This document shows positions 15,725 through 51,509 of a DNA stretch of 64,000 nucleotides, in pieces. The stretch is taken from assembly GCA_029268065.1 (NCBI GenBank), contig JAJUHC010000001.1, positions 62,001 to 126,000 of the forward strand. The letters run 5' to 3'. The translations under genes were made by a program, and so were the position numbers. The notes under the pieces were generated by a model. That model worked only from the letters and a program-made list of their open reading frames with translations. It was not told the origin of the DNA and did not search any database. Position 1 is the first letter of the stretch. Every line of letters starts with the position of its first letter. This stretch comes from Clostridiales bacterium (GTDB lineage: Bacteria > Bacillota > Clostridia > Oscillospirales > Oscillospiraceae).

Positions 15725-15759
15725 GAACACACGGCCGGAAGCTTCCCGGCCGTGTGTTT
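15725..15759 (+). repeat. Terminator hairpin, upstream copy of a 35-bp direct repeat
   Basis: A 13-bp stem (15726-15738 with 15746-15758) forms the upstream half of a 35-bp direct repeat that recurs at 15953-15987. It lies 66 bp after metK. This copy has only TTT behind the stem, because the inserted element now separates it from the original T tract. Confidence 0.9.
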
Positions 15760-15952
15760 CAGACTGTCAAAAAACCTAAGAGCAAAAAATGTGATAACAG
15801 TATAAACCCATTTTTCCGGCGGCGTGTACGCCGGAAAAATACATTATCCCGCGCAATTGTGCGCGACCGGGGGGTATCGCGGCTTCAGCCGCGTATCAAG
15901 GGGGTATTGGATACCCCCTTGAAGCGTGTCGAAAGACTTTTTCGACACGCTC
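15760..15952. mobile_element. Family 1 short non-coding insertion (MITE-like), copy A
   Basis: This 193-bp element begins CAGACTGTCAAAAAACC and ends GACACGCTC. Its ends are imperfect inverted repeats: CAGACTGTCAAAAAAC against the reverse complement GAGCGTGTCGAAAAAG, 11 of 16 matching. Inside are five successive hairpins with arms TTTTTCCGGCG, GCGCAATTGTGCGC, GCGGCTTCAGCCGC, AAGGGGGTAT/ATACCCCCTT and GTGTCGAAA/TTTCGACAC (the last with a short loop). A near-identical copy lies at 49323-49514. It encodes no protein, and the flanking terminator hairpin is duplicated. Confidence 0.8.
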
Positions 15953-15991
15953 GAACACACGGCCGGAAGCTTCCCGGCCGTGTGTTTTTTT
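15953..15991 (+). terminator. Terminator hairpin, downstream copy with T tract
   Basis: This is the second copy of the 35-bp hairpin repeat (15953-15987). It carries the T run that continues to 15991, so it is a complete intrinsic terminator and probably represents the original end of the metK transcript. Confidence 0.85.
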
Positions 15992-47823: not shown

Positions 47824-48518
47824 TGGCTATTCTTGAGTGCAGCGGGCTCACAAAAAAATACGGCGCCAAGACGGCGCTCGACAACATAAGCCTGACTGTT
47901 GAGACGGGGCGAATAGTGGGACTACTCGGGCCTAACGGCAGCGGGAAGAGCACCCTGCTCAAGCTGTGCAACGGCCTTCTGACCCCGAGCGGCGGAAGCC
48001 TTGCGATAAACGGGATGGCGCCAGGAATCGGCACGAAGGCGATTGTGTCATACCTGCCGGAGCAGACCTACCTGAACGACTGGATGAGGGTAAAGGATCT
48101 TTTAGAGTTTTTCGCGGATTTTTACAAGGATTTTGACCGCGCGAGGGCCCTGGAAATGCTTAAAAACCTTGACATCTCGACCGAAGACAGGCTGAAGACG
48201 CTTTCCAAGGGGACGAAGGAGAAGGTGCAGCTGATCCTTGTTATGGCAAGGGAGGCAAAGCTATATCTGCTCGACGAGCCTATCGGGGGAGTCGACCCGG
48301 CGGCAAGGGATTATATTCTGAATACGATAATAAAGAACTACAATCCCGAGGCGACAGTCATAATTTCAACGCATCTTATCGCGGACATCGAAACCGTTCT
48401 CGACGACGTCATATTCATATCCAAGGGCAAGGTCATGCTCACATCCTCGGTGGACGACATCAGGGAGAAAAACGGAAAATCGGTGGATGCGCTTTTCAGG
48501 GAGGTATTCAAATGCTAG
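47823..48518 (+). CDS. ABC transporter ATP-binding protein
   Basis: This 231-residue nucleotide-binding subunit shows Walker A GPNGSGKST, the signature LSKGTKEKV, Walker B LYLLDEPIGGVDP and the switch His in STHLIAD. It belongs with the YtrB/BcrA-type exporters controlled by GntR regulators. The signature motif begins LSKGT rather than LSGGQ, common in this group. The permease gene overlaps it by 7 bp. Confidence 0.93.
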   Translation: MAILECSGLTKKYGAKTALDNISLTVETGRIVGLLGPNGSGKSTLLKLCNGLLTPSGGSLAINGMAPGIGTKAIVSYLPEQTYLNDWMRVKDLLEFFADFYKDFDRARALEMLKNLDISTEDRLKTLSKGTKEKVQLILVMAREAKLYLLDEPIGGVDPAARDYILNTIIKNYNPEATVIISTHLIADIETVLDDVIFISKGKVMLTSSVDDIREKNGKSVDALFREVFKC

Positions 48519-49270
48519 GAAAACTGATGAAGTACGATATGAAGGCGCTCGGAAGGGTGTTCCTTCCCTTCTACGGCGCGCTGCTGGCGATTTCGATAAT
48601 AAACCGCATACTGGGCGCCTTAAAGCTCGTAGTACCCATGGCGATAGGGGCGGGCGTTTACAGTTTAACACTCGGCGGAGTATGCGTGCTCACCCTTGTC
48701 CTCACGCTCCAGATATTCAGAAGAAACCTTATGGGAAACGAGGGCTACCTTATGTTCACGCTCCCGGTCAGCACCGACAAGCTGATTCTGAGCAAGCTTT
48801 TTACAGCTTTTGTCTGGTATATACTCAGCTTCATTGCCCTGATGATCTCGATTCTTGTCATTTCGGCCGTGAGGATCGATCCTCGCGAGATCATATCCGG
48901 ATTCATTAGCATGATGAATGAGCTTCCCGTGAGCGGCCCCGAGTTTGCACTGTTCGTGCTGGAAGCGCTTTTAACGATAGCCATAACCCTTCTCAGCTCG
49001 ATAATGTTCCTCTATGCGTGCATATCGCTGAGCCTTTTGGTCAGCAAGCACAGAGGGCTGTTTACCTTCGGCGCCTTCGTGGTGCTGAGCATACTCTGGC
49101 AGATGGCGGTTTCGGGCATCGCGAGGGCTCTTCCGATATGGCACATGGAGTGCAACACACAATCGGCTCACACCATTCTCTGGGGGCTGACGGCGCTGGG
49201 GCTGGTAACCTTCTTCATTTTCTACTTCATAACAAGATACATGCTCACGCGAAGGCTCAATCTTGAGTAA
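48512..49270 (+). CDS. ABC transporter permease
   Basis: This 252-residue membrane protein has about six transmembrane helices and starts with the LGKLMKYDMKALGRVFLPFY cytoplasmic helix common to ABC-2-type permeases of GntR-controlled operons. FMLTLPVS-like text (GYLMFTLPVSTDKLILSKL) is another hallmark. It would pair with the ATPase encoded just upstream. In related operons the substrate is often a cell-wall-active peptide, but none is shown here. Confidence 0.85.
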   Translation: MLGKLMKYDMKALGRVFLPFYGALLAISIINRILGALKLVVPMAIGAGVYSLTLGGVCVLTLVLTLQIFRRNLMGNEGYLMFTLPVSTDKLILSKLFTAFVWYILSFIALMISILVISAVRIDPREIISGFISMMNELPVSGPEFALFVLEALLTIAITLLSSIMFLYACISLSLLVSKHRGLFTFGAFVVLSILWQMAVSGIARALPIWHMECNTQSAHTILWGLTALGLVTFFIFYFITRYMLTRRLNLE

Positions 49271-49286
49271 ACGCGTTTATATAAAA

Positions 49287-49322
49287 CCAATGTGCCTCCG
49301 GAGCTCTCCGGAGGCACATTGT
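49287..49322 (+). repeat. Terminator hairpin, upstream copy of a 36-bp direct repeat
   Basis: This perfect palindromic stem (AATGTGCCTCCGGAG and complement) starts 16 bp after the permease stop. It recurs exactly at 49515-49550. Family 1 copy B lies between the two. Confidence 0.9.
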
Positions 49323-49514
49323 CAGACTGTCAAAAAACCTAAGAGCAAAAAATGTGATAACAGTATAAACCCATTTTTCCGGCGGCGTGTACGCCGGAAA
49401 AATACATTATCCCGCACAATTGTGCGCGACCGGGGGTATCGCGGCTTCAGCCGCGTATCAAGGGGGTATTGGATACTCCCTTGAAGCGTGTCGAAATACT
49501 TTTTCGACACGCTC
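49323..49514. mobile_element. Family 1 short non-coding insertion (MITE-like), copy B
   Basis: This 192-bp element is nearly identical to copy A at 15760-15952, in the same orientation, with the same ends (CAGACTGTC and GACACGCTC). A handful of differences are seen: GCACAATTG for GCGCAATTG, a run of five rather than six G, ATACTCCC for ATACCCCC, and GAAATACT for GAAAGACT. The five internal hairpins are retained. Confidence 0.8.
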
Positions 49515-49556
49515 CCAATGTGCCTCCGGAGCTCTCCGGAGGCACATTGTCGTTTT
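49515..49556. terminator. Terminator hairpin, downstream copy with T tract
   Basis: This is the second copy of the 36-bp hairpin repeat, followed by TCGTTTTT. It keeps the T tract and lies 19 bp before the end of the convergent DUF2207 gene, so it may stop transcription from both sides. Confidence 0.8.
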
Positions 49557-49574
49557 TGGTATGAGGAAACGGGT

Positions 49575-51509
49575 CTACCAGCGTCCGCCTCCGCCTCCGC
49601 CGAAGCCGCCTCCGGAGAAGCCGCCCCCGGAAAAGCCGCCTCCGCCGAAGCCGCCCCTGCTCGTTTGGATCGGGGGAGTCGTCATGGAAGCCCGCATCGT
49701 GTTCATCGAGCGGAACATCATGTTGTAGAAAAGGAAGGAATTGAAGGCGCCGGCCTGATCATATACGTACCAGGAGGGAGGAGGCATCGCGATGTCCTCA
49801 AACTTTTTCGCCCATTTGTCGCTTACTCCCAGCGCATAGGCGTAGGGCAGCACATCATAGAAATAAGTGGGATTCTCCTCGACAAGGCGCTCCAGGCGGT
49901 CCTTCTCGGCGAGATTGAGGAAGTTGCGAAAGCCAAGTATCTTGCCGTAAAGCTCGTTGCCGTAGGGAGTGCGCTTGCGCATGAATATCGCCATTACGCC
50001 CGTAAACAGTGTTGCGGCGGGAACGACGATCCCCACGGGGAACATGCCCTGCTGGCTCATGTAGAAGTAGTAAGCATACATCACCGCCGCCGTAAGTATG
50101 AGGCCGAATAAGAGCATGACTGACTTCTTTGCCCCGCTTAAGACGTTCCATCTGTAAGCGACGCTTTTGATATACACTATCGGCATCAGAACGACTATCG
50201 CGGCGATCAGAGAAAACGCCAGAGTAAAGGTGAGCGAGAAGTAGACAATGTAAATTGTCCTGAATATACTGCCGAAAACTGTGAGCCCCGCCAAGAGCAG
50301 CACGAGGTTCCCGAGCGCGGAGGACCTCTTGCTGTACAGCAGGCGATCCTTTTCGGCATAGTGCGCCTTTATCATGGTTTTGGTTTCCGAAACGTGGGTA
50401 TATGTTTTCTGCCTGAGCTCCGAAACTAGAACGCTGTCGCGGTTTTTGAATATCTCCGAAAACAGGTACTTCTCGTACTTGTTCGGCAGCTCGGGCAGCT
50501 CCATGAGCTTTGTGAGCCTGAAATCGTCCTTTTCAAGCTGCTCGATGGTTAAATAGCCTCCGGAAGCCCAGTACAATATAAGGGAAACCACATCCCTGTC
50601 GTCGACTATCGTATCTATGATGTATCCGGCCTCGGCCGAGGTGACGTTGTCCGGAGGATAAAACTCAACGGGCTTTACGAGCATATCGTCCCTTCCGAAG
50701 CGCAGGAACAAAACAAGCGAGAGAACCGCGACAAAAACCGACGCTGCGATAATCAGCTGCTGCCAGGAGAATTCCGGCGGTACGGTGAAGTAGCCTTCCG
50801 GCAGGTCTATTTGTATCGTCAGGGCCTCGCCAGGCTTGAGCGTTTTGCCGAGAGTGCCGGACACTGTGTTGTTGTTTATCAAAAACTGCACGGGGGTGCC
50901 GGCGGTAGAGCCTGCGGGGCCTGAAAAGAACCACATCTTGTCTGCGTCGAAGCTTTTGGGCATGGTCACGTTGAAGGTGACGTTGCTGACGGAGCAGTCC
51001 CAGCTCGTGCCGATGATGTTGTAATATACAAAATCCTGCGTTGCTATCTGATCGTTGCCTATGGAGTAGTCGTAGCTGATTTTATAGACCTTTTTGCCAA
51101 TAATAAGCTTGTCGGCCGAGCCTATTTTGATGACCACGTTGCCGTTCTGCCTTGAAAGCTGATACGGGTCGCTGAAAACGCTGACAGAGGTGACGGCGGT
51201 GTTGTATACTATGCGCCTCGTAACGCCCCCCTTGTTCCAGTCCATGACCTGCCTGTAAGGAATGTAGCGGTAGATGCCGTGGCTTGAGAGTCTGAAATTG
51301 ACCGTAATCGTCTCGGTGACGTGAAAAACATTGTCGGCGCCTATTTTGATGTCGACGTTGTAGGCGGTGATATCGTATCCGCTGTCGGCGGCGCGTCCGT
51401 TTGCCGGCAGAATGGCGAGACAGCAAAAGACAAGAAGCAGCATGGTGGCAGACAACCGGAAAAGCCTGCTTGGGCCGGCCTTACTTACCCTTTTATTATT
51501 CATGGTCAA
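49575..51509 (-). CDS. DUF2207-family membrane protein
   Basis: This 644-residue protein has a signal peptide (Leu-rich core, NGRAADS cleavage region). A beta-rich extracytoplasmic DUF2207 domain follows (about 45-245, with VFHVTETITVNF and GIYRYIP). Several transmembrane helices come next (about 255, 410-480), then a C-terminal tail of Gly, Phe and Ser repeats ending GGGGGRW. DUF2207 proteins are often encoded beside LemA, as here, and their function is unknown. The TTG start at 51509 overlaps the lemA stop by 4 bp and has AAGGG at a good distance; ATG 51503 is an alternative. Confidence 0.85.
   Translation of the reverse strand: MTMNNKRVSKAGPSRLFRLSATMLLLVFCCLAILPANGRAADSGYDITAYNVDIKIGADNVFHVTETITVNFRLSSHGIYRYIPYRQVMDWNKGGVTRRIVYNTAVTSVSVFSDPYQLSRQNGNVVIKIGSADKLIIGKKVYKISYDYSIGNDQIATQDFVYYNIIGTSWDCSVSNVTFNVTMPKSFDADKMWFFSGPAGSTAGTPVQFLINNNTVSGTLGKTLKPGEALTIQIDLPEGYFTVPPEFSWQQLIIAASVFVAVLSLVLFLRFGRDDMLVKPVEFYPPDNVTSAEAGYIIDTIVDDRDVVSLILYWASGGYLTIEQLEKDDFRLTKLMELPELPNKYEKYLFSEIFKNRDSVLVSELRQKTYTHVSETKTMIKAHYAEKDRLLYSKRSSALGNLVLLLAGLTVFGSIFRTIYIVYFSLTFTLAFSLIAAIVVLMPIVYIKSVAYRWNVLSGAKKSVMLLFGLILTAAVMYAYYFYMSQQGMFPVGIVVPAATLFTGVMAIFMRKRTPYGNELYGKILGFRNFLNLAEKDRLERLVEENPTYFYDVLPYAYALGVSDKWAKKFEDIAMPPPSWYVYDQAGAFNSFLFYNMMFRSMNTMRASMTTPPIQTSRGGFGGGGFSGGGFSGGGFGGGGGGRW

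Follow-up and report, generated by a model that had tools for sequence, protein, structure and literature searches.

A non-coding element of Oscillospiraceae and its IS1182-family relatives probably insert at DNA hairpins and copy the whole hairpin to both sides

Results

Two copies of one element lie between duplicated hairpins at gene ends

The window analysed here is a stretch of 64 kb of an Oscillospiraceae genome, and it contains two copies (A and B) of a non-coding element, each placed between two copies of a hairpin. The features around copy B, and the corresponding ones at copy A, are as follows.

48512 to 49270, + strand: open reading frame (ORF) upstream of copy B, 252 aa, stops before the hairpin
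49287 to 49322, no strand: left target hairpin of copy B, 36-bp TSD
49323 to 49514, + strand: non-coding element (putative MITE), copy B, 192 bp, ends CAG...CTC, left end taken from the consensus of 40 aligned copies
49323 to 49338, + strand: left terminal inverted repeat (TIR), CAGACTGTCAAAAAAC, a motif also found at the ends of IS1182-family insertion sequences (ISs)
49499 to 49514, - strand: right TIR, reverse complement GAGCGTGTCGAAAAAG
49515 to 49550, no strand: right target hairpin of copy B, 36-bp TSD
49575 to 51509, - strand: convergent ORF downstream of copy B, 644 aa, C-terminus rich in glycine
15725 to 15759, no strand: left target hairpin of copy A, 35-bp TSD
15760 to 15952, + strand: putative MITE, copy A, 193 bp
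15953 to 15987, no strand: right target hairpin of copy A, 35-bp TSD

The product of the ORF upstream of copy B is one that we take to resemble an ABC-transporter permease. The copy B hairpin is found 16 bp past the stop of an ORF, and the convergent ORF ends 24 bp away from it; it is from this gene-end position that we infer the label 'terminator'. Copy B is flanked by identical direct repeats of 37 bp (49287-49323 and 49515-49551), each an inverted repeat of 16+16 bp with a 2-nt loop. Since the family end consensus CAG...CTC assigns the last repeat base to the element, the TSD was scored as 36 bp. This agrees with the original prediction, which had placed an element in the same orientation as copy A between exact 36-bp hairpin copies. 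Copies A and B are ~98% identical over 194 columns and occupy the same strand. The 35-bp hairpin at copy A differs from that at copy B, as had been claimed. The view that chance was an improbable source of two such cases also held, the pairs at A and B being the sole exact direct repeats of at least 20 bp at 150-360 bp spacing in the 64 kb, with 0 in 20 block shuffles.

Hairpin TSDs accompany most copies in the host genome

A search of the host genome (2.44 Mb, 50 contigs) returned at least 40 copies of the element, with 40 of 40 scored matches, drawn from 120 first-look candidates, at E ≤6e-58. The 11 bases of the right end were matched 65 times, against 1 match for the reversed pattern; a degenerate end pattern gave 119 matches against 8. 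The 95 fetched loci contained 76 distinct right ends. There were 55 entries with both flanks; in two of them (L001 minus, L014 plus) the palindromic right end had been read on the wrong strand, and the other 53 were analysed.

TSDs of 20-48 bp were present in 46 of these 53 copies and were exact in 31 of the 46; element length ranged from 181 to 297 bp. In all 46 the ends of a hairpin coincided with the ends of the TSD within 3 bases (end-anchored stem score of at least 7), compared with 95 of 2000 random positions at which such a stem starts. In 29 of the 31 exact TSDs the stem began at the terminal base or one base inward, on both sides. Thus, the flanking repeats are palindromic far beyond expectation, the outcome that the original prediction had proposed to look for. 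No 12-mer was common to any two of 47 TSDs, and the idea that element and hairpins form one larger repeat with constant flanks is thereby excluded. Hairpin loss, the replacement known from IS1272, was not seen in the 46 of 53 copies that have a hairpin on both sides.

The seven copies for which no long TSD was called are of several kinds. L009 (G000:C1:229983-230173) has a 7-bp TSD, ATTTTAA, at a non-hairpin site. L086 is bordered by a hairpin pair whose copies differ by an indel, the hairpins to the left and right of L058 are unrelated to each other, and L065, L074, L077 and L144 have a hairpin on the right with no called partner. Note that L089 has only a weak anchored stem of 4 pairs, found by a looser scan and missed by the stricter pattern.

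A longer form of the element of ~294-297 bp (L060, L080, L086, L089, L091, L093) has the same ends as the forms of 181-194 bp, and its hairpin TSDs are mostly of the same type. At L068 (2794-3142) a serial array was observed, consisting of a hairpin, a MITE, a hairpin, an element of ~80 bp with similar ends and another hairpin. This array suggests that a duplicated hairpin can serve again as a target.

Most target sites are at the ends of open frames

We examined the gene context of the 46 target sites by a permissive rule, applied without a control, that accepts open frames of at least 80 codons, stop to stop, ending within 200 bp. Thirty sites were located between two converging open frames, 12 after a left frame only, 3 beside a right frame only and 1 near none. 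Most targets are therefore where intrinsic terminators would be. The expectation that the element keeps a constant orientation relative to the T tract failed: among 45 copies, 21 were richer in A before the insert, 15 were richer in T after it and 9 were ties.

A congener has a single hairpin at locus A and a different insertion at locus B

In the congener G004, the orthologue of locus A has a single cognate hairpin and no element. The host's left gene is absent there, so that synteny supports an empty site only on the right. Locus B has matching genes on both sides, and a different MITE is found there in G004 between two identical hairpins of 32 bp, which are a diverged version of the host's copy B hairpin. 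Hairpin pairs that are identical within a species and different between species are expected of independent TSDs.

The element shares its ends with a probable IS1182-type partner

Six contig ends of the host assembly (C9, C11, C13, C29, C34, C37) carry 135-139 bp of a second element, which has the end motif of the MITE followed by a TATAAT promoter-like box and the start of an ORF, MEEWKKDSRRDVIMVDIDTLVPKD. Each of the six ends adjoins a different hairpin (stem score 9-17). The ORF start resembles MEEWKKDARRDVVITDLDALVPKDH, the start of the intact IS1182 transposase in the relative L153. In G310 the same end DNA runs into a partial match to the NCBIfam model NF033551 (85.8 bits, below the cut-off of 270). 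No full IS1182-type transposase was found assembled in the host genome, the assembly breaking at these repeats; a longer host match on C2 (133 bits) is a decayed copy with three stops, and it too is bounded by a hairpin at its end. The hairpin AAGGGCGGCCAAATGCCGCCCTT is seen beside the left end of the partner IS on one contig and beside the TTTGACAGGCT end on another (L094 and L199, at the ends of C37 and C29). Given this common hairpin, C37 and C29 probably hold the opposite ends of a single IS copy.

A DUF772 gene of G000 and G004 was considered as the partner and rejected. Its full relative L104 belongs to the IS5 family (414.8 bits, cut-off 275), and the G000 and G004 fragments have the same IS5 model as their best match, in part and at 145.5 and 161.3 bits. 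In 31 loci of IS5-type relatives and other DUF772 matches, some of them overlapping, no exact flanking repeat of at least 16 bp was found at 1000-2600 bp spacing. One decayed DUF772 transposase fragment, nearest the IS5 model (L099, G000:C10:73247-73741), has a tRNA-like gene and a hairpin resembling a terminator in its vicinity.

Full-length IS1182-family relatives also duplicate hairpins

We scanned GTDB contigs with seven such transposases. Of 155 confirmed relatives 80 loci were kept, and 55 of them had at least 180 bp on both sides; L151, L152, L156 and L157 are the same elements as L240, L244, L219 and L218 and were counted once. TSDs of 20-64 bp were present in 37 of the 55 full-length ISs, exact in 34, and all 37 contained stems (score 6-30) anchored 0-2 bases from the TSD ends. 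The TIRs beside the hairpins read CAG-N-CTGTC-R-AAAAA or CAGACTGTAGACAAA, with 9-14 of 14 positions matched. The hosts include Oscillospiraceae, Selenomonadales, Desulfosporosinus hippei and, on a complete chromosome, Claveliimonas bilis (Lachnospiraceae).

Among the other 18, six have both TIRs but two different hairpins (L239, L242, L245, L252, L263, L270), as would result if copies had recombined or the assembly were chimeric. Five have a hairpin at the one readable side (L203, L208, L216, L251, L266); the left end of L203 was matched by pattern and has no hairpin. L249 has an 8-bp TSD, TAGCTCAA, at a non-hairpin site, L215 has a seemingly decayed hairpin pair, L281 shows a weak stem at one end, and in four the ends were not recognisable. 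Together with L009, L249 provides the rare cases of 7-8 bp TSDs at non-hairpin sites, perhaps the default stagger of the enzyme on linear DNA.

Six plasmid IS1182 relatives, from 25 listed of 1735, were examined and yielded no pair of hairpin TSDs. The TIRs of ISCfr1 and of a Sulfitobacter IS are of a different type, and neither has a hairpin TSD; a small hairpin adjoins the left end of a plasmid copy of ISEfa7; an Enterococcus plasmid copy (L301) has both TIRs and flanks that do not match; and two further relatives have no clean pair of ends. Hairpin duplication is thus shown for a Clostridia/Selenomonadales subgroup, not for the IS1182 family as a whole.

The transposase of the full-length relatives scored above the NF033551 cut-off in L153 (388.6 bits), L248 (407.8), L279 (433.7) and L272 (448.4), and the Pfam domains DUF772 and DDE_Tnp_1_6 were above cut-off in L153 and L248. 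Residues D148, D280 and E407 are invariant in 51 transposase sequences and, judged by their spacing and invariance, would form the catalytic triad. An AlphaFold model built from the 51 sequences reached a pLDDT of 84 (45 with 7 sequences), and its best alignment was with Tn5 transposase (Z 14.7, 273 residues, rmsd 4.7). With Foldseek alone, no match fell below E 0.001 (best 1.0e-3), and a sequence search for a relative of solved structure found none.

The element is short and multicopy, and has in common with a full IS both the TIR and the type of TSD. Because the terminal repeat CAG-N-CTGTC-R-AAAAA and hairpin TSDs also occur in full-length IS1182-family elements, we classify it, from these sequence features, as a MITE of a hairpin-targeting IS1182 subgroup; the original prediction had named no mobile-element family. 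By the same comparison it is very probably moved by an IS1182-type transposase, which would act in trans.

The interior of the element is a chain of hairpins

The interior was analysed in an alignment of 40 of the 46 copies (length 180-195 bp). The following hairpins were scored in copy B.

49373 to 49403, no strand: internal hairpin 1, arms of 12 bp; two pairs with compensatory changes in 10-11 of 40 copies, a third pair in 1
49440 to 49455, no strand: internal hairpin 3, CGCGGC / GCCGCG; two-sided changes at two pairs, in 16 of 40 copies
49460 to 49482, no strand: internal hairpin 4, AAGGGGGTAT...; two-sided changes at two pairs, in 21 and 11 of 40 copies
49485 to 49513, no strand: terminal hairpin, forms the right end; two-sided change at one pair, in 3 of 40 copies

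Over the whole chain, 8 of 51 pairs had two-sided changes and few were broken, these counts referring to related copies and not to events. Candidate sources of the pattern are an RNA, a DNA structure or hairpin-templated repair. No gathering-level Rfam match was found in the 451 bp around copy B (49200-49650); the 11 weak sub-threshold matches in this segment included no group II intron family. A conserved hairpin, CCGGCGGCGTGTACGTCGG, with an upstream GCCTCGCAGAGTTTCGCC motif recurs at L035, L043, L049 and L055 of G042, which belongs to a different family of the order, and may be an older non-coding element.

Discussion

The claim of a structure-guided insertion that duplicates its target hairpin is supported by 46 of 53 MITE copies and 37 of 55 full-length relatives, and by the single-hairpin site at locus A and the hairpin duplication by another element at locus B in the congener. 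We consider it probable, at roughly 85%, that an IS1182-type enzyme drives insertion of the MITE at an extruded hairpin, with the whole hairpin copied to both sides. Both the landing site and the length of the duplication appear to be set by the shape of the target and not by its sequence.

A DDE transposase normally works with a fixed stagger, and TSD length is usually constant for a given transposase. A stagger as long as the target is most simply explained by a cruciform, since extrusion brings the two joining points together and the junction is alike for all lengths. In the mechanism that we propose, the palindromic target would be extruded as a cruciform, and a Tn5-like DDE transposase would join the 3' ends of the element to the two 5' feet of the cruciform. 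Gap filling would then place the whole hairpin on both sides of the insert. Joining at both 5' feet followed by fill-in would leave the target to set the length of the TSD. With DDE transposases, as PMC5678879 also describes, TSDs arise when the joined 3' ends meet 5'-staggered points on the target strands. The genes on either side would each still be separated from the insert by an intact hairpin (terminator), and both hairpin copies would remain targets for further insertions. The wider proposition, that throughout an IS1182 subgroup of Oscillospiraceae, Lachnospiraceae, Selenomonadales and Desulfosporosinus the target of the DDE enzyme is a cruciform four-way junction whose fold dictates TSD length and leaves both terminators intact, seems to us only slightly better than an even bet.

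An IS1182 enzyme might instead insert into a hairpin of single-stranded DNA at a replication fork or transcription bubble, the duplication arising by gap repair or by replication of the joined strand. The anatomy of the TSDs alone does not tell this route from a cruciform, and 45 of 46 targets have, on one side or both, an open frame of at least 80 codons ending within 200 bp, where terminators fold. However, for the palindrome to be copied exactly and in full, both strands must be joined at the 5' foot, a single folded strand leaves the second cut unpositioned, and orientation is not constant; we regard this route as unlikely. A mover from outside the family, either a Cas1-like integrase, an RNA-based one in the style of group IIC introns or a decayed IS5-family transposase, is much less probable still. 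A decayed IS5-family gene is present in the genome, a TIR-like motif lies close to the single copy in G004, and both the duplication of palindromic CRISPR repeats and the preference of group IIC introns for terminators offer precedents. Against these stand an IS1182 partner with both the same TIR and the same type of TSD, the lack of exact flanking repeats of at least 16 bp at 1000-2600 bp spacing in 31 IS5-type and DUF772 loci, and the lack of a gathering-level Rfam match in the 451 bp around copy B.

Two further accounts place the second hairpin elsewhere in the history of the locus. A short TSD could have been made at insertion and the second hairpin added later by recombination or slippage, as the two non-hairpin insertions with 7-8 bp TSDs might suggest. 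Yet TSDs are exact in 31 of 46 MITEs and 34 of 37 ISs and end within two bases of the stem base, and later addition would not stop at the ends of the element; we give this account very little weight. Alternatively, the hairpins might belong to the element, forming a composite repeat with hairpin ends, and every copy does look like hairpin, element, hairpin. This was rejected, as the 47 TSDs have no common 12-mer, and locus A in the congener has a lone hairpin; its probability is close to nil. Insertion at an extruded hairpin by an IS1182-type transposase thus remains our preferred reading.

For the IS1182 family, direct repeats of 0-60 bp are reportedly listed in ISfinder. The elements studied here have its common features, a DDE transposase and TIRs, with TSDs of 20-64 bp compared to a family range of up to ~60 bp. 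ISCaa15, another member, is described with 4-bp direct repeats in PMC3196728, and some members are cited as targeting palindromes in PMC4923244 and PMC5678879. The closest precedent is IS1272 / TnSha1 of Staphylococcus, which is in the IS1182 family. According to these two papers its targets are hairpins, among them several terminators, and are selected by their structure rather than their sequence. As described by Furi et al. (PMC4923244) and Wan et al. (PMC5678879), IS1272 insertion leads to partial deletion or replacement of the target hairpin and forms no TSD. Thus, family and hairpin targeting are common to both, but the hairpin is duplicated here and removed by IS1272. Duplication of a whole hairpin is drawn as a hypothetical pathway (b) in Fig. 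13 of PMC5678879.

Like other bacterial MITEs, of which MITEAba12 is an example (PMC6382973), the element is short, non-coding and present in high copy number, with TSDs and with TIRs as in a full IS. It differs from usual ones in its hairpin TSD of variable length and in its interior chain of hairpins with compensatory changes. The TSDs of usual MITEs are short and fixed. Group IIC introns, which are RNA-based, insert beside terminator hairpins without duplicating them. Terminator hairpin sites are common to both systems, but in the present case the hairpin is duplicated and the 451 bp around copy B contain no such RNA match. Cas1-Cas2 duplicates a palindromic CRISPR repeat at insertion, and serial insertions build arrays with one fixed repeat per array. 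The L068 array is comparable by analogy only, the enzyme being different.

In searches of the open-licence PMC literature we found no report of exact whole-hairpin duplication as a standard outcome, and no description of long IS1182 direct repeats as whole hairpins or of MITEs of such kind. That IS1182 relatives target hairpins is already known; what is seemingly new, with priority uncertain, is that a subgroup and its MITEs duplicate the complete hairpin exactly.

TSDs of 20-64 bp are hairpins in nearly every long case (L089 being weak), so that the dependence of transposition on a cruciform can be tested on defined plasmids. The link to IS1272 suggests one enzyme family with two outcomes, in which joining at the 5' feet would duplicate the hairpin and joining at the 3' feet would delete it. 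For a genomic parasite, this would be a simple route to a harmless landing at gene ends with terminators kept, and it may account for the repeats with hairpin flanks at which genome assemblies of gut Clostridia break.
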